A stretch of DNA of 40,447 nucleotides from Campylobacterales bacterium (GCA_018399655.1 JAGYNS010000002.1:1-40447); one strand, 5' to 3'; counted from the first letter of the stretch, positions 545 to 18,018 are shown. Notes: generated by a model from the letters alone, not told the origin. Made by a program: numbers and translations.

Positions 545-571
545 AAACAAAGCTAATAGTTAGCTTTGTTT
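545..571 (-). terminator. Hairpin at the end of the nuo operon
   Basis: A perfect 12-bp stem, AAACAAAGCTAA paired with TTAGCTTTGTTT, with a 3-base loop, begins at the nuoN stop codon. On the minus strand the stem is followed by a short T/A-rich stretch, so it most likely ends nuo transcription before ffs. The weak U-tract lowers confidence in strict rho-independence. Confidence 0.65.
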
Positions 572-2055
572 TAAAATCCACTCATCTGAACATAAGTAGA
601 GATCATATTCAATAACGGGTCAATATAAAGAATAGAAGTGACCGTAATAATTGCAGAGATACCAATCACTGTTTTGAGTGGATTATTTGCATTCCCCATA
701 AACTCCATACGATCATCTTCTCTTGGCTCTTTTAAGAACATATACACAATAAGCTTTAAGTAATAGTATGCAGCAATTGCAGAGTTAAGTGCCATAATAA
801 GAGCAAGTAAAATATATCCACCATTTACTGTAGCTCCTATAAGGTACATTTTTCCCCAAAATAAACTAAATGGTGGGATCCCAGCAAGGCTTAACAAAAA
901 CAATCCCATAAGAGAAGCGGCGATTGGCGATCTTTTGATCATTCCTGAAAACTTCTCAAATGGATGATCTGATTGGAATCCATGATCTGTTTTGGTTCTA
1001 TTTACCCATAGCATAGCAAATGCCCCTAGATTTGTAAATGTAAATAAAATCCAGTACAAAAATAACCCTTCTGTTGCTTGTGTAGTACCAACTAAGATCG
1101 CTGCCATAACAAAACCTGCATGTGATACAGATGAGTAAGCCAACATCCTTTTTACATCAGTTTGAACTAAAGCTACCATATTAGGAAGAGTCATTGTTAT
1201 TACTACTGTGATATATAGCACAAATTCTACCCACTGATTATTCACACTTACAAATATTTCAAAAAATCTAAGTGCTACTACAAACGCTGCAATTTTTGGA
1301 ACAACAGACATATACCCAGCCATTGCTGAGCTACTTCCTTCATATACATCTGGTGCCCAAGTGTGAAATGGTACAAGTGAAAGTTTGAACCCAAGTCCAC
1401 CAAGGATAAAAACTACCCCTAATAGTACAAATGGATAGTTTGCAAAGTCAGATGCAACTAAACTTTGACTTATATATCCAAGCTCAACACTTCCTGTAAG
1501 AGCGTAGAATATCATTATACCAAAGGCAAAAAATGCTGCTGCTAGTGCTCCCATTGTAAAGTATTTTATAGCTGCCTCAGTTGATTTATCCCTATTATGC
1601 ATAGCTATAAGTGCATAGAGTGACATAGAAGCTGTTTCAAGTCCAACAAAAATAAGAATCAAGTTGTCACTTGCTACCATAAATTGGAACCCTGCTACCA
1701 TAAATAAAAATAGTGCAAAATATTCTGGATATCTATATTCATGGAATCTTTTTTGTGATAATGCAAGCAAGATAAACAATCCAGATGCTACTAAAATAAT
1801 AATTTGAGCAAGCAATGATATCCCATCCATCAACATCACATCAAAGAAACCTCTCGTAGCACCACTGTATCCAACTACAGAACCTAAACTAATAAGTAAT
1901 ACGAGTATCGTTAACATTACATACAACGATTTATGTAAGTTTTTAGTTATTAGATCGATACATATTATCAATAATCCCCCAGCAATAGCTATAAGCATTG
2001 GAACAAGTGAAGGTAGATTTAAAGCGGCTATATCTACTGAAATTGGCTCAATCAT
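571..2055 (-). CDS. nuoN: NADH-quinone oxidoreductase subunit N
   Basis: Antiporter-like proton-pumping membrane subunit of Complex I, 494 residues, the usual length, almost entirely hydrophobic helices. The family's key charged residues are visible: Glu in [13 protein letters not shown] (about residue 140) and Lys in [13 protein letters not shown] (about 220), with a further Lys in SVVPKIAAF. It is the last gene of the operon. Its ATG shares one base with the nuoM stop (TAATG), which indicates translational coupling. The start is fixed by that junction. No anomalies. Confidence 0.96.
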
Positions 2056-3581
2056 TATTTTGTCTCCCCTATTGTATTAACCATTGCAATTTTCTCTTTT
2101 GCTTCTGGTGTTACTGATTTTAAGTACATCACTTGTACCAACTGCTTGACAGATTTATCAACTGGATCAAGCACTGGCTTTGGATAAACTCCTAGATATA
2201 TCACAATCATTACAAGTGGTACAAGTGCAGCTAGCTCTCTTCCTTTTACATCTTGTAGTTTTTCATTCACTGTTTTTGTCACTGGTCCAAAGAATGTTTT
2301 TTTGTAAAGTACTAGCATATACACTGCACCTAAAATGATCGTAGTTCCTGCAATAATTGTAAGAACTGGTGATACTGCAAAAAATCCTAGTAAACTTAAA
2401 AACTCACCTACAAATCCAATAGTAAGTGGAAGCCCAACGGAAGCCATTAGCATAATACCAAATATTGTTGCAAACATCGGCATTGGTTTTGCTAATCCAC
2501 CAAATTCACTCATCATCTTTGTATTTCTTCTATCGTAAATCACCCCTACAAGCATAAACAGAGCCCCTGAAACGATACCGTGTGAGATCATAAGAAAAAT
2601 AGACCCACCGATCCCCTCAACATTGAGTGCAAAAATACCAAGAATAATTACCCCCATATGTGATACTGAGGAGTAAGCAACAACTTGTTTAATATCCTCT
2701 TGAGCATATGCTACAAGTGCTGTGTAAACTATGGCAATGATTGCCAATATAGCCATAGGGATCATAAGTATGACACTCGCATCTGGGAATAGAGGTAATG
2801 AAAATCGTACAAATCCATAAGTTCCCATTTTAAGCAATACTGCTGCTAGAATAACCGAACCAATTGTTGGTGCTTGTCCATGTGCATATGGAAGCCATGT
2901 ATGAAATGGTACCATTGGAACTTTAATAGCAAACCCCAAAAAGAATGCCGCAAATAGCCAAAGCTGCATATCCACAGGCAACATCATCATGTTCCAATCC
3001 ATTATGCTAAAGCTCCATGTTCCTGTTGTTTGGAAATAAACATATCCCATATAAAGCATACCTACAAGCATCACTAATGACCCTGTAAATGTGAAAAGGA
3101 AAAACTTTACTGAAGCATAGATTCGTAATTTTCCACCCCATGCTCCAACAATATATAACATAGGAACCAATGATAACTCCCAGAACAAATAGAATATGAT
3201 CGCATCAAGGGCAACAAACACCCCAACCATAGTCATCTCTAAAAATAATACTGAGATAATAAGGTTTTTAAGATCCCTTTTTTCAGTGAGTCCTATTAAT
3301 GCAATCATGGTCATAAATGTAGTCATAATAACTAAAAACAATGAGATACCATCTATCCCTAAGTTGTACGATATTCCATATTGTGAAATTATTGGTATAA
3401 ACTCACTAAATTGCATCCCAGCATAATTTGTATCAAATGTAGCCCATAGGTAGCAAGCAAGTAAAAACTCTATTGCTGTTACTGTTATACCATAAGTTCT
3501 AATTGAATCCTTATCTACCATGAATCCAATCACAGCAGCAAATGCTGGAAAAAATACTAAAATTGATAAAATATATTCCAT
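2055..3581 (-). CDS. nuoM: NADH-quinone oxidoreductase subunit M
   Basis: Antiporter-like membrane subunit of Complex I, 508 residues, normal length. The proton-channel residues are present: Glu in [10 protein letters not shown] (about residue 135) and Lys in [16 protein letters not shown] (about 220). About fourteen membrane helices can be read as hydrophobic runs. A strong ribosome binding site (AAGGAAAGGGAAAGT) precedes the ATG. It follows nuoL by 12 bases and couples to nuoN through TAATG. Intact. Confidence 0.97.
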
Positions 3582-3593
3582 ACTTTCCCTTTC

Positions 3594-5540
3594 CTACTTT
3601 AAATTACCAAAAACGATTGCTAGAATTAGAAGTACTAATATACCTATTCCCATCCATTTCAACGCTTTTGATAAGTTTCCTGACTGCATTGCAGTTCCTG
3701 CTTCTCCACCACTGTAAATCCCTTTTGCAATACCATCTACAATTGCATCAATAATTTTAAGGTCAAGCTCTTTCCAGCTAAATGTTGCTAGTTTTCCATA
3801 CGGTTTTGAAACTACATTTTCCCAAAAATGGTTCATGTAATATTGATTGGCTAGTATTTTATAACATGGTCTATTTTTAAATGTTTCACTAAAATAGGTT
3901 CCATCTTTTTGAAACTTTAATACCGCCAACGCAATACCACCAAGTGCAATACCGAGTGTAAGGATTATAAGCATCCAGAATGTTCCTGTAGTTACATGGA
4001 TATCAAGTTCTGGAAGTGTTTTTGTAATCATCTCAACATATGCTTCTTTAAAGAACCCTGCAACCACTGCTAAAATAGCAAGTGGTGCCATTGCAGCTAT
4101 TACAAATGTATAGGTTTCATGTGGATGTTGATAATTTTCATCCTCTTTATTGTGACTCCAGTTCTCTTTTCCAAAAAAGATATACATAATAAGTCTAAAT
4201 GAATAAAATGCTGTAAGACCTGCTGTTATCCATAATACTGCCCAAATCACATATGCATGTGTTCCAAATGCAACTTCTAGAATTAAATCTTTTGAGAAGA
4301 ACCCAGCAAATGGGAAGATACCTGCAAGTGCTATAGAAGCTAAGATCATAATAAGACCTGTTTTTGGCATATATTTATACAAATTACCCATCTTTTTAAT
4401 ACTAATCTCATCATTCATAGCATGCATAACATTTCCAGCGCCTAAGAATAATACTGATTTGAAGAATGCATGCATTGCAAGATGAAATAGTGCCACCCAG
4501 TATGCTCCAAGACCAGCTGCTACAAACATATACCCTAGTTGTGATAAAGTTGAAAATGCAATGATTTTCTTCATATTTGTAGCTACTAGTGCCATTGCAG
4601 CAGCTCCAATTGCTACAAGAGCACCAAGCGCTGCAATAAAATATCCAACTTCAGGGACAACTGTAAAAATCTCATTTGCTCGAATAACTAAATAAACCCC
4701 AGCAGTTACCATTGTTGCAGCGTGAATCAATGCTGAAACTGGTGTTGGACCCTCCATAGCGTTTGCAAGCCAGGTATTAAATGGAAATTGAGCTGATTTA
4801 CCCATTGCTCCAATGAAAAGAAAAATTGCAATAGCAACTACTAATCCATCACTTAATCCACCAATTTGTGCAAAAACCACATCATATTGTAAACTTCCAA
4901 TATTCCAAAATATCAAGAACATACCAACAAGCATACCAAGGTCTGCAACTCTATTCATAATAAATGCTTCATTTGCTGCCCATGATGGGGATGGTGAAGA
5001 GTATGGAGAGAGTGTAGAAAATGGTGATTGTGTGATATCTTTACTTCTTTCTTGATCCTTTTTATGATACCAAAACCCAATCAGACCCCAAGAACAAAGT
5101 CCAACTCCTTCCCAACCAATAAATAGACCAGCAAAGTTATCTGACATCACAAGTATCATCATAGAAAAAACAAATGCGGAAAGCCACGCAAAAAATCTAT
5201 TAAATGATTTGTCATGATCCATATATCCAATTGAGTGAATATGCACCATTGTAGATACTAATGTAACCACAACCATCATCACTACACTTACAGGATCAAC
5301 GATAAACCCAAATGGTATATCAACATTTCCTATCACTATCCAATCAAGCATTTTCACATTGACCACTGCATTTGCAGTATAGATATGTGAAAGCAAAATT
5401 AAAGAAGCTATTAATGAAACCCCTAACAGTGCAGATGTTACAATTCCTACAAATAATTTTTTAGGACTATTGCTAAACAGTGCTGCAAACAGTGACCCAA
5501 CTAATGGTGCAAATAGTGCCGTATATAAAAAACCTTCCAT
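3594..5540 (-). CDS. nuoL: NADH-quinone oxidoreductase subunit L
   Basis: Largest antiporter-like subunit of Complex I, carrying the long lateral helix at the C-terminus. Key residues are visible: Glu in GWEGVGLCSWGLIGFWY, and Lys in GKSAQFPFNTWLANAM followed by EGPTPVSALIHAATMVTAG. The track starts at a TTG (5546). The ATG two codons later fits better with the AAAGGG site that overlaps the nuoK stop, giving 648 residues. Oddity: a Ser/Pro-rich stretch (TQSPFSTLSPYSSPSPSW) is inserted between the conserved FWYHKKDQ and ANEAFIMNRVADLG segments, where relatives have a short loop. The reading frame is otherwise unbroken. Confidence 0.96.
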   Translation of the reverse strand: MEGFLYTALFAPLVGSLFAALFSNSPKKLFVGIVTSALLGVSLIASLILLSHIYTANAVVNVKMLDWIVIGNVDIPFGFIVDPVSVVMMVVVTLVSTMVHIHSIGYMDHDKSFNRFFAWLSAFVFSMMILVMSDNFAGLFIGWEGVGLCSWGLIGFWYHKKDQERSKDITQSPFSTLSPYSSPSPSWAANEAFIMNRVADLGMLVGMFLIFWNIGSLQYDVVFAQIGGLSDGLVVAIAIFLFIGAMGKSAQFPFNTWLANAMEGPTPVSALIHAATMVTAGVYLVIRANEIFTVVPEVGYFIAALGALVAIGAAAMALVATNMKKIIAFSTLSQLGYMFVAAGLGAYWVALFHLAMHAFFKSVLFLGAGNVMHAMNDEISIKKMGNLYKYMPKTGLIMILASIALAGIFPFAGFFSKDLILEVAFGTHAYVIWAVLWITAGLTAFYSFRLIMYIFFGKENWSHNKEDENYQHPHETYTFVIAAMAPLAILAVVAGFFKEAYVEMITKTLPELDIHVTTGTFWMLIILTLGIALGGIALAVLKFQKDGTYFSETFKNRPCYKILANQYYMNHFWENVVSKPYGKLATFSWKELDLKIIDAIVDGIAKGIYSGGEAGTAMQSGNLSKALKWMGIGILVLLILAIVFGNLK

Positions 5541-5546
5541 CTTCAA

Positions 5547-5852
5547 CTACCCTTTCATACTTTGTAATGTATCGAGACTAATAGTATTGTGTCTTTTAAA
5601 CCAAAGTACTAACAATCCTAGCCCTATAGCTACTTCACTTGCTGCTACTGCTATGATGAAAAAAGCAAACATTTGCCCCGTAAGATCACCATGAAACTTC
5701 GAAATTGCTGCTAATCCTATATTAACTGCATTGAGCATAATCTCTGTAGAGAAAAATAGCATTAGTAAGTTTTTTCTTCGTAATGCACCATACATACCTA
5801 TCATAAATATAATGGTACTTAAGATTAGATAATCATTTAGTGTTATACTCAT
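5547..5852 (-). CDS. nuoK: NADH-quinone oxidoreductase subunit K
   Basis: Small membrane subunit of Complex I, 101 residues, three hydrophobic helices. The two membrane glutamates of the family are present, in FFSTEIMLNAVNIGL and VAASEVAIGLGLLVL. Its start overlaps the end of nuoJ by four bases. It ends right before nuoL, and its last codons (ATG AAA GGG TAG) supply the ribosome binding site of nuoL. Confidence 0.97.
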   Translation of the reverse strand: MSITLNDYLILSTIIFMIGMYGALRRKNLLMLFFSTEIMLNAVNIGLAAISKFHGDLTGQMFAFFIIAVAASEVAIGLGLLVLWFKRHNTISLDTLQSMKG

Positions 5853-6430
5853 TTAATATCCTTTTTAATCTCTGAATCTGTTCTATGGTGATCAATATCA
5901 TGCTCTTCCATCTCGGTAATTGATACATCCATCTTCTTTCCAGCTAAAATTATTCCACCTATCATAGCTACAAGAAGCATCACCGCAGCAACTTCAAATG
6001 GGATGAGATATTTTGTAAATAAAACAAGTCCTATATCTTGAGTATTTCCGTACGCTTCATTAATTGGATAGTGTGCTGTGATATTAGCTCCAATTATAGG
6101 CGCTGTTAATATAGCCACTACTAAAAGGGCAATTACTCCAGACATTAAGAAAGTTAATCGTGGTTTCGCTACTGATTCTTTTACATCATTAATAGAGTCA
6201 AAAAACATCATACCAAAAGCATACAAAGCCATAACAGCTCCTGTATATACTACGATTTGTACTGCTCCTAAAAATTCAGCTCCTAGTAAAAAGAAAAATG
6301 CAGAGATGAAAATCATCCCAGCAGCTAATGAGCTTAATGCATAAAGTGCATTTTTCGTCATAACGGTTACTGTAAACATTGCTATTGTTAAAAAAGCAAA
6401 TAGGTAAAAGGCTACTACTTCAAACATCAT
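5849..6430 (-). CDS. nuoJ: NADH-quinone oxidoreductase subunit J
   Basis: Membrane subunit of Complex I, 193 residues with about five hydrophobic helices and a charged C-terminal tail (EEHDIDHHRTDSEIKKDIK). Diagnostic stretches are GAEFLGAVQIVVYTGAVMALYAFG and the late EVAAVMLLVAMIGGI helix. A ribosome binding site (AAGGA) precedes a double ATG, and either could be used. It overlaps nuoK by four bases and follows nuoI by six. Confidence 0.95.
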   Translation of the reverse strand: MMFEVVAFYLFAFLTIAMFTVTVMTKNALYALSSLAAGMIFISAFFFLLGAEFLGAVQIVVYTGAVMALYAFGMMFFDSINDVKESVAKPRLTFLMSGVIALLVVAILTAPIIGANITAHYPINEAYGNTQDIGLVLFTKYLIPFEVAAVMLLVAMIGGIILAGKKMDVSITEMEEHDIDHHRTDSEIKKDIK

Positions 6431-6436
6431 TATTCC

Positions 6437-7063
6437 TTAATAAGCCAGTGGCGTTTTTTTGATTTTTTTATCTGCATCGGGTGAAATTGCACCAAATCCA
6501 TCATATTCCACTTGTTGTGCTAACTGGTCAAATGGGGTTAAAAGATCATCTTTGAGAACAAAGTGTTCTCTTTGTTCACTTGCATTTTCATATCTTCCCC
6601 CATGAACAATTGCAAGTTCTGGGCATACTTCAGCACAGTATCCACAAAAGATACAACGACCTAGATTAATGGTATACTCCATAACCTCTTTTCGCGAGTT
6701 TTCATCTATTTTTGTATCCATTCGAATACATTTTGCGATACAAATTTTCTCACACAATCCACACCCAATACATCGGTTATTTCCACTTTCAAGAAGACCC
6801 AAAAGCTTGTGTACTGCTCTATATCTTGGGCTAATTGGAAGTTTCTCTATTGGATAGAGTGTATTGTGTGTCTCATTGTTGACCAATACACCTTTCATTA
6901 TTTTAAAAGTTATCCCTAAACCTTTAAAAAGCTCTAGACTCAAACTTCTTTTTACTACTTGCGTAAACTGTTGCCATCCTGTTTTTGGATACTCTTCAAT
7001 ATCCATTAAAACATACTCTTGAGTGCCAACATTTCTCTCTTTTAAATCTTTAAAACTCATCAT
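6437..7063 (-). CDS. nuoI: NADH-quinone oxidoreductase subunit I (2x 4Fe-4S)
   Basis: Peripheral-arm ferredoxin subunit of Complex I that carries clusters N6a and N6b towards NuoB. Two CxxCxxCxxxC-type motifs are visible: CIGCGLCEKICIAKC and CIFCGYCAEVCP. The length is 208 residues, with an N-terminal segment of about 70 residues ahead of the clusters, somewhat longer than the E. coli protein (180). Start: AAAGGG then ATGATG, so MMSF or MSF. It sits between nuoH and nuoJ in standard order. Confidence 0.96.
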   Translation of the reverse strand: MMSFKDLKERNVGTQEYVLMDIEEYPKTGWQQFTQVVKRSLSLELFKGLGITFKIMKGVLVNNETHNTLYPIEKLPISPRYRAVHKLLGLLESGNNRCIGCGLCEKICIAKCIRMDTKIDENSRKEVMEYTINLGRCIFCGYCAEVCPELAIVHGGRYENASEQREHFVLKDDLLTPFDQLAQQVEYDGFGAISPDADKKIKKTPLAY

Positions 7064-7072
7064 TCAACCCTT

Positions 7073-8032
7073 TTATAGTACTACTAGACCAGTTACTAGT
7101 ATATTTAATAAAGCTAATGGCATCAACACTTTCCAACATAACCACATCAATTGATCTGGTCGTATGTGTGGCCAAGATGCTCTTGTCCATAAGAAAAGGA
7201 AAATCAAGAACATAACTTTTAAAATAATTGCTAACGCTCCAGGGATAAACCATAGATCATTGAACCCACCTAAAAACATTAAAGATGTTAAGAATGCTAT
7301 TGTAAAAAGGTTTGCATATTCACCTATAAAAAACATCCCCCATCTCATCCCAGAATACTCTGTCGCATATCCAGCAATAACTTCTGCTTCATGCTCTAAA
7401 AGGTCAAAAGGTGTTCTATTTGTCTCTGCAAATCCTGCTATTAAAAATAGGAAAAATGCTACAGGCTGTGTCCAAATAAGCCAATTTGACAATCCACCTG
7501 CTTGATAGTTGTTAATATCAATAAGTGATAAACTTCCTACAAGCATCAATGGAGCTAAAATCGAAAGACCAGTAACAACCTCATATGAAAGAAGTTGAAT
7601 AGCTGTTCTGGCACCTCCAAGAAGTCCCCATTTATTTGCTTGAGACATACCACCTAAAAGTGGTCCATACAATCCTGTTGCCATAACACCAAGGACAAAT
7701 AACACCCCAACATTGACATCAGATACAATTACTCCAGGGAGAAACGGTATTGCTGTCATTGCAATAAATGCCGTTGCTGCAGTGATCACTGGAGCTATCA
7801 TAAAAATAAGTCTATTTGAATTTTGTGGAACAAAATCCTCTTTTGTAAAAAGTTTTGCACCATCAGCTAAAATTTGTAGCAGTCCATAAGGACCTACATG
7901 CATAGGACCAGGTCGTCTTTGCATAAAAGCTAATATTTTTCTTTCCACATATGTAGTAAATCCAGCTAATGCAGAAAATACGGCTAAAATAACTACTACT
8001 TTAACTATTGTCATTAGAATTTCATTATCCAT
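7073..8032 (-). CDS. nuoH: NADH-quinone oxidoreductase subunit H
   Basis: Membrane subunit that forms the quinone-binding chamber with NuoB and NuoD. 319 residues, about eight to nine helices. The conserved loops are present: ERKILAFMQRRPGP, GLLQILADGAKLFTKED and the acidic loop AETNRTPFDLLEHEAEVIAGY with the following YSGMRWGMFFIGEYAN. It lies three bases after nuoG2 and ten bases before nuoI. Intact and of normal length. Confidence 0.97.
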   Translation of the reverse strand: MDNEILMTIVKVVVILAVFSALAGFTTYVERKILAFMQRRPGPMHVGPYGLLQILADGAKLFTKEDFVPQNSNRLIFMIAPVITAATAFIAMTAIPFLPGVIVSDVNVGVLFVLGVMATGLYGPLLGGMSQANKWGLLGGARTAIQLLSYEVVTGLSILAPLMLVGSLSLIDINNYQAGGLSNWLIWTQPVAFFLFLIAGFAETNRTPFDLLEHEAEVIAGYATEYSGMRWGMFFIGEYANLFTIAFLTSLMFLGGFNDLWFIPGALAIILKVMFLIFLFLWTRASWPHIRPDQLMWLCWKVLMPLALLNILVTGLVVL

Positions 8033-8035
8033 CTT

Positions 8036-10489
8036 TTACACCTTTGTTATATTTGCTGTAGCGAATCTACAGTTTTCAAATAGTTTTCTTGTTTCACAAT
8101 TTTTTTCAAATGTTGGTACATACGAAATCTCCCCTTTTAGATCACTATCCACCCTTACAAAAAGTGTTACTTTTTGATCATTTGCAGATATTTCAACCTT
8201 GTCATCTTCTTTTAGCTCAAGTTGAGCAGCAAGCTCACTTGAAACATATAGAGCAACTATATCATTTTTTAGTTGATTTGCAAGTGCAGTAAACTCATTA
8301 AACTGATTAATTGGGTTTGCACTGTATATAATATACTCACTTTCATTTTTACTTAATGAGTTTATTGTCGTGTTAAAAGGTTGCTCTTTTCTATCTACAG
8401 GTTCACAATCAATGGTATAGCCTCTATGCTCTGCACGGTCATTACCATAATAATTTTCAAGGAGATCAAACTCTATTTTTTTGAATATCTCTTGTGTATA
8501 TTCTATAGTGTTACTTTTTTTCTCATCTAATATCTCATTTGCAATATTATTGAGGCAATATCCATGATAAGCTACTGCAGCATTTGTAGGGACAACTTTT
8601 TTGTTAATATTTACAAATGTCCCCTCTTGTTGAGACAATACTGGCATATCAAGATCCCCATCACCTAAGCTACTGATTTGAAAATCTGCTTCCATATTGT
8701 ACCCTACTGTTTTCCCAGTAGCAATCACATCAAGATCACATAACTTACTTACCCCTAACGAATTTGTTTGTGTTGGGATAATAAGAACTTTAAACGGCGT
8801 ATACTTTTCAACTATAGCAACTAACTTTGCCAAACTACTGCTATTTGGATGGTTGATACAATCTTCCCCTACTATTAAACTAAAGTTTTCTTTTTTCGCA
8901 AGCATCGCTTCAAGAGTTTCTAAAAGAGATTCATCACTTCCTATAGTATCTAAAAGTTTTGTATAGGAATATTCAACTTCTGTATCTACTTTTTTAGGTA
9001 CCATTTTAGTTGTTTCTTTCTCTTCTCCTGTTTCAGGATCAGTAACCATCTCAACAACTTTTTCTTTAATAGTTTCTGTGACTACTTTTGTTCGTTTCTC
9101 TTTAAATGAATCCAAAAAGCTTTGAATATCTTCAGGTAGATCTTTCCCAAACTGATCAAGTATAAGGTAAAAAACAGCCTCTTCACTTAATACATTTATT
9201 TGTACTGGCTGAATAGTTTTTCCTAATTTTCCTAGCCCTTCAATATGCTTATCTCCCATAGGATGAAAATATATTCCTGCACCTTTATTCATACTAATCG
9301 CATTATTAAATGCATATTTTACACTTGGAGCATCCGATTTTAAATAAGACCCAACACTTATAATAAAATCGCTATTGTGGATATCTTCTAAATCTGCACC
9401 ATAAAGATCTTTTCCACTTTCATTTGCGTAGTTGTTTAAAAACTCTTTAAATTTAAAAGCGTTCATATTAACAAGTTTTGCCCCTGTTTTTTCTTTTATT
9501 TTTTGGAGTATATAAGCTTCTTCATTGGTAATAAATGAGTTAAAGACTATAGATTCTGCATTTTTAAAAGCCTCTACTGCTTTTTGAAATTGCTCTTCGT
9601 TTTTTTGAGCTTTATTGATATAATCAAATCCAAAGCGAGCTGCACCACTTAAGCTTGTATAGTGAGAATCATTTGTTACTCTATAGATCCTTTTTTCAAG
9701 ATTATTTTCAATAGTGTCATGTTTTACTTCATAGTACATTAAAGAACAATCTGAACTATAAGGATTTGATGCTGGAATCTTTGTAAGTTCCCACGCATTT
9801 GATTTGTACTGAAAATCACTACTTACAAGAGCTCCTACTGGACAAACAGCAATACACTCCCCACAATCAATACATTTCTCTTCTTCAAAACCTATTAGAT
9901 TTTTATTGAGCTTATTCCACATTGCATAGGCATCTTTTGGCATACACTCTTTATAGGACTTATCAAGTGCTTCAGCTCCTCTTTTAACAGTGCTTAGTGC
10001 ATTTGATCCTATCATATCTTTACAAATAGTTACACACTTTTCACACACTATACAAAGCCCTGGGTCATATTTCATCACTCCCCAATTTTGTGCTGGTCTA
10101 TCTACATCTTTTACAGCATAGTTTTGAGAATCAACTTTCATATACAATGAGTAGTTTTGCAGTTCACACTCACCACTTTGATCACAAACCCCACACTGTA
10201 ATGGATGATTTACATCATAGACTTCCATGATTGCTCGTCGCTCTTTTACGATATTTGGAGTATCAACTTCAATAGCCATTCCATCTTTACATTTTGCATT
10301 ACAAGCATACACTTGCTTACCATCAGCTTCTACCAAACACAATCGACACGCTAATGTTGGTGTACATTTTGTTTGGTAGCAAACTGCTGGGATAAATATC
10401 CCATTCGCTCGAGCCACATTGAGGATAAACTCCCCCTCTTGTGTTTCACACTGTTTTCCATTAATAGTGATATGTATCATATTTCCCAT
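8036..10489 (-). CDS. nuoG: NADH-quinone oxidoreductase subunit G, second copy
   Basis: Second of two tandem NuoG paralogues, 817 residues. The N-terminus keeps the 2Fe-2S ligands (CYQTKC..ACRLC..YAC), the HPLQCGVCDQSGEC His-Cys3 cluster, and two 4Fe-4S motifs (CIVCEKCVTIC, CIDCGECIAVC). The N7-type motif at the start of the molybdopterin-like domain is degraded: SNPYSSDC, where copy one has CAHCSSGC, so two of three visible cysteines are gone. A charged insertion (VVTETIKEKVVEM..DPETGEEKETTKM) near residue 465 is absent from copy one. It starts by TAATG overlap with the first copy, so both are co-translated. Tandem NuoG copies are known in some Campylobacterota; here each probably makes a distinct contribution. 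Confidence 0.93.
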   Translation of the reverse strand: MGNMIHITINGKQCETQEGEFILNVARANGIFIPAVCYQTKCTPTLACRLCLVEADGKQVYACNAKCKDGMAIEVDTPNIVKERRAIMEVYDVNHPLQCGVCDQSGECELQNYSLYMKVDSQNYAVKDVDRPAQNWGVMKYDPGLCIVCEKCVTICKDMIGSNALSTVKRGAEALDKSYKECMPKDAYAMWNKLNKNLIGFEEEKCIDCGECIAVCPVGALVSSDFQYKSNAWELTKIPASNPYSSDCSLMYYEVKHDTIENNLEKRIYRVTNDSHYTSLSGAARFGFDYINKAQKNEEQFQKAVEAFKNAESIVFNSFITNEEAYILQKIKEKTGAKLVNMNAFKFKEFLNNYANESGKDLYGADLEDIHNSDFIISVGSYLKSDAPSVKYAFNNAISMNKGAGIYFHPMGDKHIEGLGKLGKTIQPVQINVLSEEAVFYLILDQFGKDLPEDIQSFLDSFKEKRTKVVTETIKEKVVEMVTDPETGEEKETTKMVPKKVDTEVEYSYTKLLDTIGSDESLLETLEAMLAKKENFSLIVGEDCINHPNSSSLAKLVAIVEKYTPFKVLIIPTQTNSLGVSKLCDLDVIATGKTVGYNMEADFQISSLGDGDLDMPVLSQQEGTFVNINKKVVPTNAAVAYHGYCLNNIANEILDEKKSNTIEYTQEIFKKIEFDLLENYYGNDRAEHRGYTIDCEPVDRKEQPFNTTINSLSKNESEYIIYSANPINQFNEFTALANQLKNDIVALYVSSELAAQLELKEDDKVEISANDQKVTLFVRVDSDLKGEISYVPTFEKNCETRKLFENCRFATANITKV

Positions 10490-12771
10490 TATGCTTCAAC
10501 CTTTTGGATTTCTACTTTTTTAAATCTATACCCTTGTTCAATAAGATCATCATGGAAATCATTATCAAAAGTTGGGTATAAAGCCACTGTCCCTTTTATA
10601 TTTTTATCAATTTTGAATACTTTTTTTGTAATTTGATTATTATAGCTTATAGTAACTTCATCTTTATCTTTGATTTTTGCTGCTGTTGCAAAAGCTGAAC
10701 TTCCTCGTAGCTCTTTAGTTGTTTGAAGCAATAGTGATCTTCCCGTATTTTTATTGAATTGGTGTAAAGGTTCACATCTATAAATAATAGTACCATTAAA
10801 CGAATCAATTGAGGATATCTGCTCAAGTTTTGTAGAGCTTTTTATCATCTCAATTTTTTCACAAGCAAGTGGATACCCTCTTTGATCTTTCCCATATTTG
10901 TCAAATCCATTTTTTAAGCTATCAAACTCTACACTTAAAAAACCTTTGTTTTGAGGCAACTGTTTTGTATATTCAATTGTTAGGGCTACTTTATTTTCTA
11001 AAATACCATTAGCGATATCATTGAGGCAGTATCCATCAAACGGTAAGGCAACATTTGTGTTGACCACTTTTTTATCAAGACTAACAAAAGTACCCTCTTG
11101 CTGATTTAATGCTGGAACCTCTATATCACCCACTCCACTACTACTAATAATAAAGTCACCCTTTTCATTGTACCCTACCACTTTTGAACCAACTTCATCA
11201 TCAAGTTCACAAATTAAGCTTACCCCTAACGAATTTGTTTGAGATGGGATAATTACCACTTTAAAATCAGTATATTTATTGATTATACCTGCTAATTTTG
11301 CGATATTTGAAGCTTGTGAGTGACCAAATAGATCTTCTCCTAAAACAAGTGTTTTATTTTTTCCTCTTTTAAGCTTTTGTACTATAAGCTCAAACTCCTC
11401 TTCCCCTACACTACACTCACCACTTAAGTTCCCAATATCAAGATCATCAAAATACTCTTTAAACTCATCTGGAATATCTTTAATCAAATAGCTTGCAAGA
11501 AGTGCCATCACACCCTCTTCACTCCCTACTTCATATTTAACAAATTGATTATATTTATTTTGTAATGCAATATCATCAATTGGGTGCATATAGATAAAAT
11601 CAGCCCTTTGCTTTTTTGTCGCAATATTACAAGCATATTTTACCACTGGATTATCTCTACTAATTCTAGTACCAATCATAATGATTGCATCACTTTGTTG
11701 GATCGTTTCATTGGTTCCGTCATACAAAGGCTTTTGAGTGACACTTTCATAACTTTTTATAAAATCTTGAAATTTTTTTGCATCATAATTTACAAGTTTT
11801 ATTCCAGTTTGCTCTTTGAGTTTTTGTAAGATATATGCTTCTTCATTTGTTATAAATGAATTAAAAACAATCGTATCGCTTGAACTTATCGCTTCAACTG
11901 CTAATTGAAGTTTTGCAGGATCTTTTCCATCTCCTTTATTTTCAAAATGAAATCCAAATCGTCCCGCACCACAAAGTGCATCAAACTCCGCATCATTGGT
12001 CACTCGAGTGATTTTATTCTCAAATGGATTTGATACACCTGCATGTTTTACCTCATAGTATAATCCACACCCACTGCTACAATGTGCACAAGTTGCTGGT
12101 ACTTTTTTTGATTCCCATGCATTTGAGCTATATTTATATTCATTTGAAACCAATGCTCCCACTGGGCATACAGAGATACAATCTCCACACTGTTCACATC
12201 GAGAATACTTTATATCTATAATTGATTTGTATCCACCTGGTTTTACATACAGTGCAGCACTTCCTATCACTTCGTTACAAGTATGGACACACTTTTCACA
12301 CATAATACAAAGACTTGGATCATACCCTAGTATCCCCCAGCTTTTCTTTTTTCTTGCAGGCTCTTTTACTGCAAACTCTTGTGAATCTACGCCAAACTCT
12401 AAAGTTTTATTTTGAAGATCGCACTCTCCACTTTTATCGCAAACCCCACACTGTAATGGATGATTTACATCATACATTTTCATTATATTTTGTCTATGTT
12501 TAAACAGCTCTTGATTGTTTGTGGTGACCACTGCTTTGTCTACTGCTTTTTCTTGGCAAGAGAGAACTGTTCCATCAACCCCTTCTACATCTACCACACA
12601 CATTCTACATGCGGCTATTGGTGACACTTTTGTCAAATAACACATTGTTGGGATATAAATATCATTGGCTCTTGCAATTTGCAATATTGTTTGCCCATAT
12701 ATCCCTTGACACTCTTTTCCATCAATTGTGATGGTTATTAGTTTTCCTCTATGTTGTACTCGTTCACTCAT
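10489..12771 (-). CDS. nuoG: NADH-quinone oxidoreductase subunit G, first copy
   Basis: Largest peripheral-arm subunit, with iron-sulfur clusters leading from NuoF to NuoI. The track starts at 12807, but the real start is MSERVQHRG, whose ATG overlaps the nuoF stop (ATGA), giving 760 residues. Ligand sets seen in order: 2Fe-2S (CYLTKV..ACRMC..LSC), HPLQCGVCDKSGEC, CIMCEKCVHTC, CEQCGDCISVC, then a full N7-type CAHCSSGC before the molybdopterin-oxidoreductase-like region. No molybdenum cofactor binding is expected in Complex I. It is clearly paralogous to the next gene (shared blocks such as FNSFITNEEAYILQKIKE), so a tandem duplication is the likely origin. Confidence 0.94.
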   Translation of the reverse strand: MSERVQHRGKLITITIDGKECQGIYGQTILQIARANDIYIPTMCYLTKVSPIAACRMCVVDVEGVDGTVLSCQEKAVDKAVVTTNNQELFKHRQNIMKMYDVNHPLQCGVCDKSGECDLQNKTLEFGVDSQEFAVKEPARKKKSWGILGYDPSLCIMCEKCVHTCNEVIGSAALYVKPGGYKSIIDIKYSRCEQCGDCISVCPVGALVSNEYKYSSNAWESKKVPATCAHCSSGCGLYYEVKHAGVSNPFENKITRVTNDAEFDALCGAGRFGFHFENKGDGKDPAKLQLAVEAISSSDTIVFNSFITNEEAYILQKLKEQTGIKLVNYDAKKFQDFIKSYESVTQKPLYDGTNETIQQSDAIIMIGTRISRDNPVVKYACNIATKKQRADFIYMHPIDDIALQNKYNQFVKYEVGSEEGVMALLASYLIKDIPDEFKEYFDDLDIGNLSGECSVGEEEFELIVQKLKRGKNKTLVLGEDLFGHSQASNIAKLAGIINKYTDFKVVIIPSQTNSLGVSLICELDDEVGSKVVGYNEKGDFIISSSGVGDIEVPALNQQEGTFVSLDKKVVNTNVALPFDGYCLNDIANGILENKVALTIEYTKQLPQNKGFLSVEFDSLKNGFDKYGKDQRGYPLACEKIEMIKSSTKLEQISSIDSFNGTIIYRCEPLHQFNKNTGRSLLLQTTKELRGSSAFATAAKIKDKDEVTISYNNQITKKVFKIDKNIKGTVALYPTFDNDFHDDLIEQGYRFKKVEIQKVEA

Positions 12772-14780
12772 ACTGCCACCATCCCTAGGTAATAACATCT
12801 CATACATCGTTCAGCCTCAGCTTGTGCTTCAACTGCTGTGAATCCTAGATTTACCTCTTTGTTATTGTCTTTCCTTACTTCTGTTGCAAGTTTTTCACTT
12901 GTCTCTCTTGGAAGTCCTGGCATCCAACCTTTAATCTTCTCATTTTTATTATACACTTTGAGTCTATTCATATGATCTTCCATAATCTCACTATCTAAAA
13001 GTGAAACTTCTTTATCATATATATATCGACTCATAACCGATGCGGCTCTTCTTGCTTGCCCTACTGCATTTACAATTGTCATTGGACCATATTCACAATC
13101 CCCTGCAGCAAAAAGTCCAGGTCGACTTGTCATATAATCTTTCCCATTTGTTTGTAAAGTTCCCCATGAGGTCATCTCTAGTTCCCAATCTTTTGGTAAA
13201 ATTTGAAGGTCACATGCTTGTGATACTGCAGGTACTACAAAGTCACACTCAACATCTTCACTCGCTCCTTCTACTTTGACAAGTTGTGGTCTTCCCCCAT
13301 CTGGGTCTGGTACTTGTTCATACTGATCAATTCGAACCCCTGTAATCTTTCCATTGTCATCATAAATAGTATCAATAGCTGAGTAAAACTTAAACTCTAC
13401 ACCCTCTTCAACTGCTTCAGTATACTCTTCAAGGGTAGTATTTCTAATAATTGTCTTTTCATCTCTTCGATAAAGCATAATTACCCTTTTTGCACCCTCT
13501 CTTATAGAGCATCTTACAACATCCATAGAGGTAAATCCACCACCAACACAAACAACGGTTTTATCTTTGAGGTCTTCTGATGCTGGGCTTCCTATTTTGT
13601 ATTTATGCCAAAGATTCACTTTATCTAGCATCTCAATAGCACCCCAATATCCTTCATAGCTAGGATCTTCATTTTCACAACGGATCTTTTTTGATAGTCG
13701 TGTTCCAAAAGCTAAAAGTGTCGCATCAAACTCTTCATCAATCTCTTTAAGTCTCTCTGCGGTTACTCTATGATTTGTTATAATTTCAACCGTTGGCAAA
13801 TCAGCTACTAGCTGAATATCTTTGTTATATTTTTCAATTGGCATTCTGTATTGTGGAACCCCAACAGCAACCTCTCCACCTAATACAGGAAGTTCTTCAA
13901 ATATCGTAACACTAATCCCCTCTAGACCCAAATAATACGCTGTAGTTAATCCAGCAGGTCCAGCTCCTATAATGGCTACTTTTTTCCCATCATTTCTAGG
14001 AGCTTTTGGTTTGAGTGGATGAAACCACTCAAGATCATGATCAGTTTCATAATCAGCTCCAACTCTTTTTAACTCCATAATTGACACTGGCTCATCAAGG
14101 TTAGATCTTCTACAGGCATCTTCACATGGATGTGGACATACTCTTCCACATGTATGCGATAAAGGCATAGTTTGTCGTGTTGCTTTGAGTGAACTTTCAA
14201 AGTCAAGCTCTCTGACCCCATCAATATATCCAGGGATATCTACATGGGCTGGACACATATCTGTGCAAGGAGCTGTGACATTTGCTATATATCGCTCAGT
14301 ATCTTTTTCATACCATGGAGATTTTTGCCCATTTTGAATCAATGTTAAAAACTGCTCTTCAAAAGCTTCTATCATATATAAAATTGGTGTTGGAACAGTT
14401 TTTCCTATCTCACATTTACTAGTAGTAGTCATTGTAGAACTTACCTCTTTGATATGATCTAAGTCACTAAGGTCCCCTTCCCCTCTTGCTATCTTGTCAA
14501 GCATATCAAAAAGGATCTGTCCACCCCATCTTCCAGGGGTACACCTTCCACAAGCTTCACTATATTCCTGATACTGTCTTGCATAATTCATGGCAAGTTT
14601 TACAACATCTACATCTTCTTCAAACAATGCAAATCCATCCCATCCTACAAATGCTTTTGTAGGGGATTCTTTCGTGTAATCAACAGGAAGTTTTACAGAG
14701 ATCTCATCCCAGTTATCTAGGGGTTTACCTCTATTATCAATCACTTCACCTTGCCAATTAGAATAATAAACTTTACTCAA
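12768..14780 (-). CDS. nuoF: NuoF-type iron-sulfur domain fused to GltD-like FAD/NAD(P)H oxidoreductase
   Basis: 670 residues at the nuoF position. Residues about 70-150 match the C-terminal cluster-N3 domain of NuoF (EACGRCTPGRWG, later TSKCEIGKTVP), but the third cysteine of the usual CxxCxxC is Gly. The canonical NuoF FMN/NADH domain (GRGGAGFP) is missing. Instead, residues about 165-590 are a GltD-type small subunit: cysteine-rich N-terminus (CTDMCPAHVDIPGYI, CGRVCPHPCEDACRR), FAD site VAIIGAGPAGLTTAYYLG, NAD(P)H site VVCVGGGFTSMDVVRC, and FAD-closing GLFAAGDCEYGP. A last CxxC (ERCMRC) lies at the end. Inference: the GltD part is the NAD(P)H entry module for this Complex I. Related fusions occur in other Campylobacterota. 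Confidence 0.88.
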   Translation of the reverse strand: MSKVYYSNWQGEVIDNRGKPLDNWDEISVKLPVDYTKESPTKAFVGWDGFALFEEDVDVVKLAMNYARQYQEYSEACGRCTPGRWGGQILFDMLDKIARGEGDLSDLDHIKEVSSTMTTTSKCEIGKTVPTPILYMIEAFEEQFLTLIQNGQKSPWYEKDTERYIANVTAPCTDMCPAHVDIPGYIDGVRELDFESSLKATRQTMPLSHTCGRVCPHPCEDACRRSNLDEPVSIMELKRVGADYETDHDLEWFHPLKPKAPRNDGKKVAIIGAGPAGLTTAYYLGLEGISVTIFEELPVLGGEVAVGVPQYRMPIEKYNKDIQLVADLPTVEIITNHRVTAERLKEIDEEFDATLLAFGTRLSKKIRCENEDPSYEGYWGAIEMLDKVNLWHKYKIGSPASEDLKDKTVVCVGGGFTSMDVVRCSIREGAKRVIMLYRRDEKTIIRNTTLEEYTEAVEEGVEFKFYSAIDTIYDDNGKITGVRIDQYEQVPDPDGGRPQLVKVEGASEDVECDFVVPAVSQACDLQILPKDWELEMTSWGTLQTNGKDYMTSRPGLFAAGDCEYGPMTIVNAVGQARRAASVMSRYIYDKEVSLLDSEIMEDHMNRLKVYNKNEKIKGWMPGLPRETSEKLATEVRKDNNKEVNLGFTAVEAQAEAERCMRCYYLGMVAV

Positions 14781-14806: not shown

Positions 14807-15076
14807 TTACTCTGTTTCCTCTTGGGTATCACTTTTTTGAACAGGTGGTTTCTCTTTTTTGACAACTACCGTCCAGTCAACTTCATTGAACTTCAAAGAG
14901 TTCATAAGTGTCCACTGATTTTCCTTAATTGCATCAGCTACATTTTGAACTGAACTAAAATCACCTATCTCAAATAAAAATATCCCATTTTCACCCTCAG
15001 TGATCTCTTTCCCCATAATCTCTACTAGTCTTGGGATAAAATTCTCTTTGTGCTCTCTTAAATCATATCGTTTCAT
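14807..15076 (-). CDS. nuoE: Epsilon-type NuoE replacement protein, cysteine-free
   Basis: 89-residue protein in the nuoE position between nuoD and nuoF. It has no cysteine at all, so it cannot hold the 2Fe-2S cluster of canonical NuoE (about 160 residues, four Cys). Campylobacter and Helicobacter carry comparable small non-homologous proteins here (Cj1575c type), often labelled NuoE by position. The C-terminus is charged and probably disordered (KKEKPPVQKSDTQEETE). A structural or docking role for the entry module is inferred; the enzymatic label should not be taken literally. Confidence 0.8.
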   Translation of the reverse strand: MKRYDLREHKENFIPRLVEIMGKEITEGENGIFLFEIGDFSSVQNVADAIKENQWTLMNSLKFNEVDWTVVVKKEKPPVQKSDTQEETE

Positions 15077-15088
15077 CTCATCCCTTCC

Positions 15089-16315
15089 TTATCGGTCAAT
15101 CTCACCAAATACAATATTTAAGTTACCTATAATAGTAACCACATCGGCTAACTGGTGACCAGGTAATATATCTTGTAGTAATCCTGTGTGCCAAAAACTA
15201 GGAGCTCTACATTTGAGTTTATATGGGTATGGTGATCCATCACTTACAATATAAAATCCAAGCTCCCCTTTTGGAGACTCTGTTGCTACATACACTTCCC
15301 CAACTGGTGGTCTCATCCCTTGAGTAACCAATACAAAATGTTGCATCAAAGAGTAGTTTTGTGTCATCATCTCCTCTTTTGTTGCAGAGATATACTCAGG
15401 TGCATGAGCCATTAACTGCGTATCACTCTGCTTATACATAGGGATCAATTGTCGTAAAATCTTAACAGACTCGTACATCTCTGCCATATGACACTTATAT
15501 CTTCCATAAGAGTCACATCTATCTGAAATTGGAATATCAAAATCTAGCTCAGGATACAATCCGTAAGGCATCTCTTTTCTTAAATCCCATTTAATACCAC
15601 TTCCTCGAAGTGATGGACCACTACATGCCCACTCTTTTGCCATCTTAGGAGTGAGAATTCCAACATTTTCTAGTCTCATTCTCCAGATTCTATTTTTTGT
15701 TAAAAGCCCTTCGTATACTTTGATTTGTCCCTCAAATATTTGCAAGAATTTTTCAAGATCATCTGTCCAGTTTTTTGGAAGATCAAGTGGTACTCCCCCA
15801 ATTCGCACTGCACTATGGGTGAGTCTTGCTCCACAATAATCCTCCATAAGATCCATTGCAAACTCTCTTTCACGGAAACAATAAAGAAATACTGACATCG
15901 CACCCACATCAAGTGCATGAGTTGCAAGCCAAAAAAGGTGTGAAATAATTCTATTAAGCTCAAGAAGCATTGTTCGTATCACTTCAGCTCGTCTTGGTGC
16001 TTCAATCCCTAACAGCTTTTCAACCGCTAATGCATATCCATAGTTATTGGAAGTTGCTGCGATATAATCCATTCGGTCTGTTGTAGGTAAAAACTCATTG
16101 TAGATCATATTTTCACCCATTTTTTCTATCCCTCTATGAAGATACCCAATATCTGGATGAGCTTTTATCACCTCTTCACCCTGGAGTTCAAGCATCAGTC
16201 GTAATTGACCGTGAGCAGATGGATGTTGAGGACCAAAGTTTACGATCATCGCATTGTCTTCTCGTTCAAAACTTATATTTTCAAAGAAAGGTTTTAATCT
16301 ATTTGTTACTTGCAT
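15089..16315 (-). CDS. nuoD: NADH-quinone oxidoreductase subunit D
   Basis: 49-kDa-type subunit that builds the quinone pocket, 408 residues, normal length. Signature blocks: [19 protein letters not shown] near the N-terminus, [16 protein letters not shown], the [11 protein letters not shown] block, [10 protein letters not shown], and the C-terminal [18 protein letters not shown] ending. The start directly abuts the nuoC stop. It is a stand-alone nuoD, not a nuoCD fusion. Confidence 0.97.
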
Positions 16316-17137
16316 CTACTTTCTCTCTTTCAATTGTTTTTTCTCTTTTTTATCAAATGGGGTTACAAGTGTTGCTCCAAAAAGTTTTACTCCACCCTCT
16401 TCTTGATACCTAATTGGTGTGTCAGGTTCGTTTCCTTCAGAGATTTGCGTTCCAAATGGTACTTCATGTCCAAGTCTTGCAAATCTTTCAGTATCGTATC
16501 TATCTACACATGCTGCATCACGAAGCTCAGGACCAATTACATCTCTCGCATTTTTCCCAAAAATTTTATCCACTTCATACCAGCTAGCAAACTCATCCCC
16601 TTGTAGTGGATAAGTTTTCAGTAGTGGATGACCTACCCAATCATTTGGCATAAGTATTCGAGTCAGTTCAGAGTGATTGTTTACATAAATACCATACATA
16701 TCATACATCTCTCTTTCACTAAAGTTCGCCATTCTAAAAATTGACTCAACTGAAGTGATTGCATCACCATTATTAATAAATGCTTTAAGTCGTATTCTTT
16801 TATGTTTAGATGTTGAAAGCATCTCGTATATAATCTCAAATCCACCTTTTGAAGCCACATAATCAACTGCTGTTAACTCCATCATAAAATCATATGCTCT
16901 AATCTCCTTAAGGTGCTTAATCGCAGCAAAATTATCTTCAGGATTTATAACCAGCACCATATGATCAAGTTCTATATAAGACTCCAAAACACTACAGATA
17001 TTTTTCAAACTGTGTAGGTCTTGACTAAATACTCCATCGGTAAAAACAGATTTTCTAGGAAGTGTTGGTGTTACAAAAAATCTATCACTATAATAGGATT
17101 TTTTTTGGACATCATCTTTTGGTGTATATGCTCTCAT
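16316..17137 (-). CDS. nuoC: NADH-quinone oxidoreductase subunit C
   Basis: 30-kDa-type peripheral subunit, 273 residues. The family core is visible at FMMELTAVDYVASKGGFEIIYEMLS and the signature FSEREMYDMYGIYVNNHSELTRIL followed by MPNDWVGHPLLKTYPL. It is extended at both ends relative to stand-alone NuoC: about 60 residues at the front, and a C-terminal tail of about 80 residues past the core. Adjacent to nuoB and nuoD with no gap. Confidence 0.95.
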   Translation of the reverse strand: MRAYTPKDDVQKKSYYSDRFFVTPTLPRKSVFTDGVFSQDLHSLKNICSVLESYIELDHMVLVINPEDNFAAIKHLKEIRAYDFMMELTAVDYVASKGGFEIIYEMLSTSKHKRIRLKAFINNGDAITSVESIFRMANFSEREMYDMYGIYVNNHSELTRILMPNDWVGHPLLKTYPLQGDEFASWYEVDKIFGKNARDVIGPELRDAACVDRYDTERFARLGHEVPFGTQISEGNEPDTPIRYQEEGGVKLFGATLVTPFDKKEKKQLKERK

Positions 17138-17647
17138 CTATATCAACCTTTTCGCTCTTTGAGCCATATTTGCTGGCTCTCTTCTTATTTTTTGTTGTAA
17201 CTGCATCAATGCAAACTGTAGAGTTTCAGGTCTTGGGGCACAACCTGGAAGGTAAATATCAACAGGAATTACTCTATCAACCCCTTGCACGGTAGCATAG
17301 GTATTGAACATTCCACCAGTGTTTGCACATGATCCCATTGAGATAACCCATTTTGGATCTGGCATCTGGTCATACAATCTTCTCATAAACTCTGCATGTT
17401 TTTTTGTTAAAGTTCCAGCTACTACTAGCACATCCGATTGTCTTGGACTTGCTCTAAAAATTGTACCAAATCTATCAAAGTCAAATCTTGAACCACCTGA
17501 TGCCATCATCTCAATAGCGCAACATGCAAGTCCATAAGTCATAGGCCATAGTGAGTTACTTCGTCCAAAATTGACTATTTTATCAACCGTAGTAAGTTTT
17601 ACTGCTTCCCCACCTTGTCTGAAATAGTTTACTTTATGCTGTGCCAT
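17138..17647 (-). CDS. nuoB: NADH-quinone oxidoreductase subunit B
   Basis: Carries cluster N2, the last iron-sulfur centre before quinone. Its ligands are visible: adjacent cysteines in [12 protein letters not shown], then [10 protein letters not shown] and [11 protein letters not shown]. The track start at 17731 lies deep inside nuo[10 protein letters not shown] at 17647 has a good ribosome binding site (AAAGGAGCACTAGA) and gives 169 residues, the family length, overlapping the nuoA end by 19 bases. Confidence 0.96.
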
Positions 17648-18018
17648 TCTAGTGCTCCTTTTCTCCATTCGTATACGAATCCAATAATAAGCAATAATAA
17701 AAAGAAAAACATTGCTACAAATCCAAACCAACCAAGAACTTTAAAGTTTACTGCCCAAGGAACCATAAAAATAATCTCAACATCAAATAAAATAAACAAA
17801 AGTGCCAGCATATAAAACTGTACCGAAATAGTATTTGGCTGTTTTGTAACCTCTGGACCACACTCATAAAGTGTAGTTTTTAGTTTTTCTGTATCTCTTC
17901 TTGCAAGCTTTCTACTTACAAATCTTGCTGCCATAGTGGTCGCTATAAAAGCTCCAAATGTCAATACAAACATAACAAACGCACCAAAATATGGATGTGC
18001 AAAGCTAGAATGTTCCAT
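17629..18018 (-). CDS. nuoA: NADH-quinone oxidoreductase subunit A
   Basis: First gene of the operon, 129 residues, three membrane helices. The conserved loop [11 protein letters not shown] and the acidic helix [18 protein letters not shown] are present. A strong ribosome binding site (AAGGGG) lies six bases before the ATG. Its 3' end overlaps nuoB by 19 bases. The upstream leader of about 60 bases carries a small hairpin and a candidate promoter. Confidence 0.97.

Follow-up and report, generated by a model that had tools for sequence, protein, structure and literature searches.

Complex I (NDH-1) is usually regarded as an NADH-linked enzyme, and the version found in Campylobacter and Helicobacter has stood apart as unusual, two of its subunits lacking an explanation. 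HP1264, a homolog of the subunit called NuoX here, is reported to bind FMN and to have a novel fold (PMC6269979); HP1265 has been annotated as NuoF (PMC3561388), and Cj1574c was reported to mediate electron transfer from flavodoxin (PMC4178425). Canonical NuoEF are also missing from Nautilia-type complex I, which has been described without NuoE, NuoF, NuoG and NuoK (PMC2628731). In the soluble Stn complex, a GltD-type module of StnC feeds NADPH electrons into a NuoG chain in a non-bifurcating manner (PMC10482914). Here we analyse a stretch of 40,447 nucleotides from a Campylobacterales bacterium (GCA_018399655.1 JAGYNS010000002.1:1-40447; the window), in which the nuoF position of a complex I operon is occupied by a gene for a NuoF remnant fused to a GltD-type flavoprotein.

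The window resembles the Campylobacter/Helicobacter type, hereafter the short form, in operon order, in NuoX of the HP1264 family, in NuoG2 and in the absence of nuoEF (PMC6682613), but in the short form NuoY, at the Cj1574c/HP1265 position, replaces both the fusion and an additional NuoG, NuoG1. With Nautilia it shares the lack of canonical NuoEF, whereas the window encodes a full replacement module. The fusion and StnC (8OH5, with 9BOV) have in common a GltD-type FAD/NADPH module that feeds, or in the fusion would feed, NuoG-type clusters, the same set of cysteines, a lysine ligand and a CxxC ending the module. The module of StnC, however, forms part of the NuoG chain of a soluble complex that also has a bifurcating NuoF, while that of the fusion is joined to a NuoF remnant of a membrane complex I. 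The window does not encode an Stn transhydrogenase (GltD within NuoG plus StnB, a bifurcating FMN protein of the NuoF type), as its operon is without PF01512 and the fusion is a different one.

The fusion protein

The open reading frame of the fusion starts with TTG and sits between nuoX and nuoG in a complete nuoA–nuoN operon. Its Pfam domains are NADH_4Fe-4S (PF10589) at residues 63-145, Fer4_20 at 158-248 and Pyr_redox_2 at 266-576; Complex1_51K (the FMN/NADH domain, PF01512) and SLBB are absent from the Pfam scan of the fusion. In a canonical NuoF encoded elsewhere in the bin, on a separate contig, Complex1_51K, SLBB and PF10589 are all present. These domains confirm the original prediction, made from the sequence, that the FMN/NADH domain is gone and that a GltD-like module follows the NuoF cluster domain at the nuoF position. 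The features are as follows.

12768..14780, minus strand: NuoF'-GltD fusion subunit, 670 aa, nuoF position (Pfam and NCBIfam scans; orthologs in relatives)
14331..14696, minus strand: NuoF C-terminal cluster domain, residues 29-150, with no preceding FMN or SLBB domain (Pfam/NCBIfam scans, NfnB/HydB alignment)
14412..14552, minus strand: degenerate N3 motif, C77, C80, G83 replacing the third Cys, and C123; four positions invariant in alignments A1 and A2 (alignments, motif check, NfnB/HydB alignment)
14037..14309, minus strand: Fer4_20 domain, residues 158-248, with C172, C176, C211, C215, C219, C223 and Lys238 (Pfam, ortholog and StnC alignments)
14067-14069, minus strand: Lys238, aligning with StnC K170 (StnC 8oh5 alignment)
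13053..13985, minus strand: GltD module, putatively FAD- and NAD(P)H-binding, residues 266-576, with motifs GAGPAG, VGGG..MD and YRR (Pfam; PDB matches StnC, NfnB, GltD)
12795..12806, minus strand: C-terminal CMRC (C659, C662), predicted to complete a distal [4Fe-4S] with C172 and C223 (invariant; ligands assigned by homology)

Similarity to NuoF is limited to residues 29-150, and the fusion fails as a canonical NuoF or Nqo1 on two counts: like these it has the C-terminal cluster domain, but it lacks PF01512 as well as SLBB, and the four cysteine ligands of N3 are not present. Its N3 motif reads CGRC-x-P-G...C, with Gly at the third ligand in every aligned ortholog of three overlapping sets (17, 32 and 26 sequences). 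The remainder has the make-up of a GltD/StnC-type flavoprotein, namely Fer4_20 and two Rossmann domains with conserved motifs. The closest solved structures to this part are StnC (8oh5/9bov). C172, C176, C215, C219, C223, C659 and C662, invariant in the orthologs together with Lys238, fall on the conserved cysteines of the two StnC clusters, and K170, the StnC counterpart of Lys238, is a lysine at the cluster adjoining a non-bifurcating FAD (PMC10482914). By homology, a proximal [4Fe-4S] is predicted at C176, C215, C219 and Lys238 and a distal one at C172, C223, C659 and C662.

With GltD and NfnB (NfnL) the fusion shares the fold and the FAD and NAD(P)H sites, but it has Lys where NfnB has Glu as cluster ligand, and its CxxC is C-terminal rather than N-terminal. 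At the NAD(P)H site, 26/26 orthologs checked carry YRR, and the motifs suggest a protein that would bind FAD and may be specific for NADPH. Bifurcation or confurcation at this FAD, with NADPH and ferredoxin exchanging electrons with quinone as in NfnB, would fit the common fold and the conserved R312 at the position of NfnB R201. We regard it as very improbable: the arginine also occurs in non-bifurcating StnC, the fusion is without a second flavin domain, and Lys238 is of the StnC rather than the NfnB type, which argues against bifurcation.

The source genome is a fragmented bin (355 contigs, 85% complete), in which a chance fusion or an assembly artefact might be suspected; this explanation is already refuted by full-length orthologs, at the same place, in single-contig genomes and in more than a dozen families, and we give it practically no credence. 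Full-length orthologs occur in 28/60 relatives with 53-86% identity, and the fusion is matched in 81/298 Campylobacterota genomes (E < 1e-100), with Arcobacteraceae, Sulfurovum and Nitratifractor bins among the carriers. By the extent of the reported segment only, 73 of the 81 matches start at residue 40 or before, one spans only 254-669 and seven only about 131-669. Five of the latter seven genomes were read as having the long layout described below, and in all five (5/5) the same frame also matches the NuoF part, with an insert ahead of GltD. In the fusion of family f13 (L165-L170), an insert of about 60-290 aa separates NuoF' from GltD, and open frames reach about 960 aa.

Operon layouts and the origin of NuoY

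In the window, nuoA, B, C, D, H, I, J, K, L, M and N are encoded together, as expected of complex I, and PF01512 is absent throughout the nuo operon (Pfam). The rest of the operon consists of the following genes.

17629-18018, minus strand: nuoA (domain scans)
17138-17731, minus strand: nuoB (domain scans)
16316-17137, minus strand: nuoC (domain scans)
15089-16315, minus strand: nuoD (domain scans)
14807..15076, minus strand: nuoX, HP1264 family (PF16514), 89 aa, the so-called NuoE (PF16514 E 2.4e-33; 2LXR E 7e-18)
10489..12771, minus strand: nuoG1, an additional full NuoG (N1b, N5, two ferredoxin-type cluster motifs, N7)
8036..10489, minus strand: nuoG2, ortholog of the one NuoG that the short layout has (PRK08493, 1084 bits; alignment A5)
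571..8032, minus strand: nuoH, nuoI, nuoJ, nuoK, nuoL, nuoM and nuoN (domain scans)

The protein upstream of the fusion had been taken for a cysteine-free NuoE. It is indeed free of cysteine in the window, while 11/48 relatives have a Cys in their NuoX; its identification as NuoE was rejected, as the thioredoxin-like [2Fe-2S] family PF01257 is not matched and PF16514 and 2LXR are. On the other side of the fusion, its stop and the start of nuoG1 overlap as ATGA. This overlap, the tandem NuoGs and the missing third N3 ligand go beyond the original prediction. The fusion protein is a candidate for a physical part of complex I, judging by its place in the operon, its NuoF cluster domain and the overlap of its gene with nuoG1. 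The N5 motif of NuoG1 includes His, and the N7 ligands are lost in the window's copy of nuoG2 (alignment A5). The open frame of nuoG1 extends to 12807, the ATGA overlap suggesting 12771 as the true start.

Two layouts were established from about 50 loci read. The long layout is nuoD-nuoX-fusion-nuoG1-nuoG2-nuoH; the short one, of the Campylobacter, Helicobacter and Sulfurospirillum type and found in part of the Arcobacteraceae, is nuoD-nuoX-nuoY-nuoG2-nuoH. NuoX is common to both (PF16514 in 242/298 genomes), and in the long loci read the fusion always lies between nuoX and nuoG1. Compared with the eNuo type carrying nuoXY, the window has nuoX and, instead of nuoY, the fusion and a full NuoG1. 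In the genome counts below, short (n=162) stands for NuoX present and no fusion match, with about 22 such loci read.

NuoY, at the HP1265/Cj1574c position, was compared with the other subunits by profile alignment (hhalign), using profiles from families f10 and f13, taken for Campylobacteraceae and Helicobacteraceae by gene sizes and order. It aligns with residues 356-757 of NuoG1 at E 6e-37 and with NuoG2 at 4e-13, compared with 0.54 for the fusion and 0.54 for NuoF, so that its identification as NuoF is rejected. By its sequence, NuoY looks like a remnant of NuoG1: it is homologous to the C-terminal half and lacks the cluster-bearing half.

An unrooted backbone tree, built on NuoD, NuoX, NuoG2, NuoH and NuoI of 45 operons, shows seven switches of layout, at least six of them forced by supported branches, and a single short clade is rejected (approximately unbiased test, p-AU 1e-8). 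The NuoY of f13 groups with the NuoG1 of f13 with support 98/95; that of other families is placed less well. Since NuoY corresponds to part of a NuoG1, losses on several occasions are simpler to assume than gains. The long layout is probably the ancestral form, and the short one would have arisen from it each time the fusion gene and the cluster half of NuoG1 were lost.

Some loci show further irregularities. A genome of the otherwise long family f6 (Sulfurovaceae type), G248, has two short-type complex I loci, L175 and L176. In family f18 (L163, L182 and L195), gene conversion within the tandem pair is indicated by C-terminal blocks, 206, 209 and 102 aa long, that are identical in NuoG1 and NuoG2. 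In one single-contig genome (L187:5681-8051), NuoG2 lies in two overlapping frames, by a frameshift or a real split.

Electron donor and direction of flow

We favour, with slightly better than even confidence, the view that the fusion is the electron entry or exit subunit of the long form of epsilon-type complex I, linked to NADP(H) and exchanging electrons with quinone in a non-bifurcating, StnC-like manner. The NuoF cluster domain would serve as the dock, with the catalytic NADH/FMN part replaced by the GltD-type flavoprotein. Electrons would pass from NADP(H) to FAD, to the proximal and then the distal [4Fe-4S], possibly over a three-cysteine N3-like site, and on through NuoG1, NuoG2 and NuoI to menaquinone, with proton pumping coupled to the transfer. 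The flow may often run backward in autotrophs, quinol reducing NADP+ for CO2 fixation. In the short complex, NuoY and the FMN-binding NuoX would serve flavodoxin or ferredoxin. We infer NADP(H) as the substrate because the relatives whose substrate is known (StnC, NfnB and GltD) are NADPH-linked.

Not all members of the GltD family use NADPH, and the module might use NADH, the change being purely architectural. The loop after YRR is IIRNTTLEEY, as against EMPA-like loops in solved NADPH enzymes, and a canonical NADH-type NuoF is often missing from genomes with the long layout, both of which would suit NADH. We nevertheless consider this improbable, given that YRR is kept throughout and that the best solved relatives of known substrate are NADPH-linked.

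A separate canonical nuoE/nuoF pair in the genome had been named as the observation that would speak against a rebuilt entry module. Such a pair is present to the letter, on contig C296 (L024) of the same bin, but not in substance, since it lies in an operon of its own, a canonical nuoA/B/CD/E/F/G/H/I/J/K. This arrangement, together with the presence of a fusion complex and a canonical complex I side by side in a 99%-complete relative (G107), marks the pair as part of a second complex I and not as the partner of the fusion complex. Two complexes I side by side are also known from Sulfurospirillum multivorans (PMC4585668). The C296 NuoF is closest (73% identity) to that of G219, another f6 genome, which also has the fusion; transfer or a stray contig is thus possible, and the GC contents compared on this question are 0.37 and 0.34. 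On contig C355 (L023) of the bin lies an operon for a HoxEFUYH-type NAD-reducing [NiFe] hydrogenase with a small ferredoxin-like gene in front, and Hox diaphorase genes as on this contig also occur in related genomes (L028, L029 and L030).

Ferredoxin or flavodoxin could be the donor of the long complex too, entering at NuoX or at the cluster domains of NuoG, with GltD as a side port to NADP+ similar to ferredoxin:NADP reductase, optionally bypassing quinone. NuoX is kept in both layouts and its homolog HP1264 binds FMN (PMC6269979), and the short form uses flavodoxin (PMC4178425) or, as proposed, ferredoxin (PMC4585668). A long-chain flavodoxin is encoded by 150/162 of the short genomes and by 45/81 of the long ones; it was rejected as a clean marker of the short layout, since over half of the genomes with the long layout, that of the window included, have one. 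The 36/81 long genomes without it, a count that leaves out ferredoxin, and the place of the fusion, at the NuoF position and coupled to NuoG1, lead us to regard this alternative as rather unlikely. Of the original suggestion of a donor different from that of canonical complex I, the rebuilt entry module and a donor that is probably not NADH are retained; the ferredoxin/flavodoxin route calls for revision, being published for the short form, while GltD points to NADP(H).

Several points weigh against the NADP(H)-linked reading and the history proposed with it. With the third N3 ligand lost, NuoF' may be devoid of a cluster, and an AlphaFold model from 32 orthologs (pLDDT 66, pTM 0.45) is too weak for cluster geometry. 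The YRR motif is no proof of NADPH over NADH, the function of the long complex is drawn from sequence and analogy, and the published flavodoxin work covers the short form only. ATP-citrate lyase, encoded in 63/81 long and 6/162 short genomes, speaks for the reading by raw counts, but this association does not reach significance when independent pairs are compared (about 2/6 contrasts differ), and the enzyme is absent from every long f13 and f14 genome sampled. Furthermore, the tree is unrooted, and we infer loss rather than gain from NuoY being a fragment.

Known kinds of parts make up this complex; what appears to be new is that a NuoF remnant is combined with GltD and two NuoGs in one complex I, and the origin proposed for NuoY. 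A literature search found no account of either, although earlier mention of each is possible. Many sulfur- and hydrogen-using marine bacteria appear to have a complex I in which an NADPH-type flavoprotein stands in for the lost NADH-binding part. The locus offers a source for one odd subunit of the Campylobacter/Helicobacter enzyme, NuoY being the remains of a second NuoG beside FMN-binding NuoX. Tentatively, and with less than even confidence, we suggest that in vent and sediment Campylobacterota a complex I with two serially arranged NuoGs and a flavoprotein dedicated to NADP(H) runs mainly backward, supplying NADPH for the reductive tricarboxylic acid cycle, and that its repeated erosion gave rise to the Campylobacter/Helicobacter complex I driven by flavodoxin. 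The specific prediction would be that abundant chemolithoautotrophs have a complex I working between NADP(H) and menaquinone.

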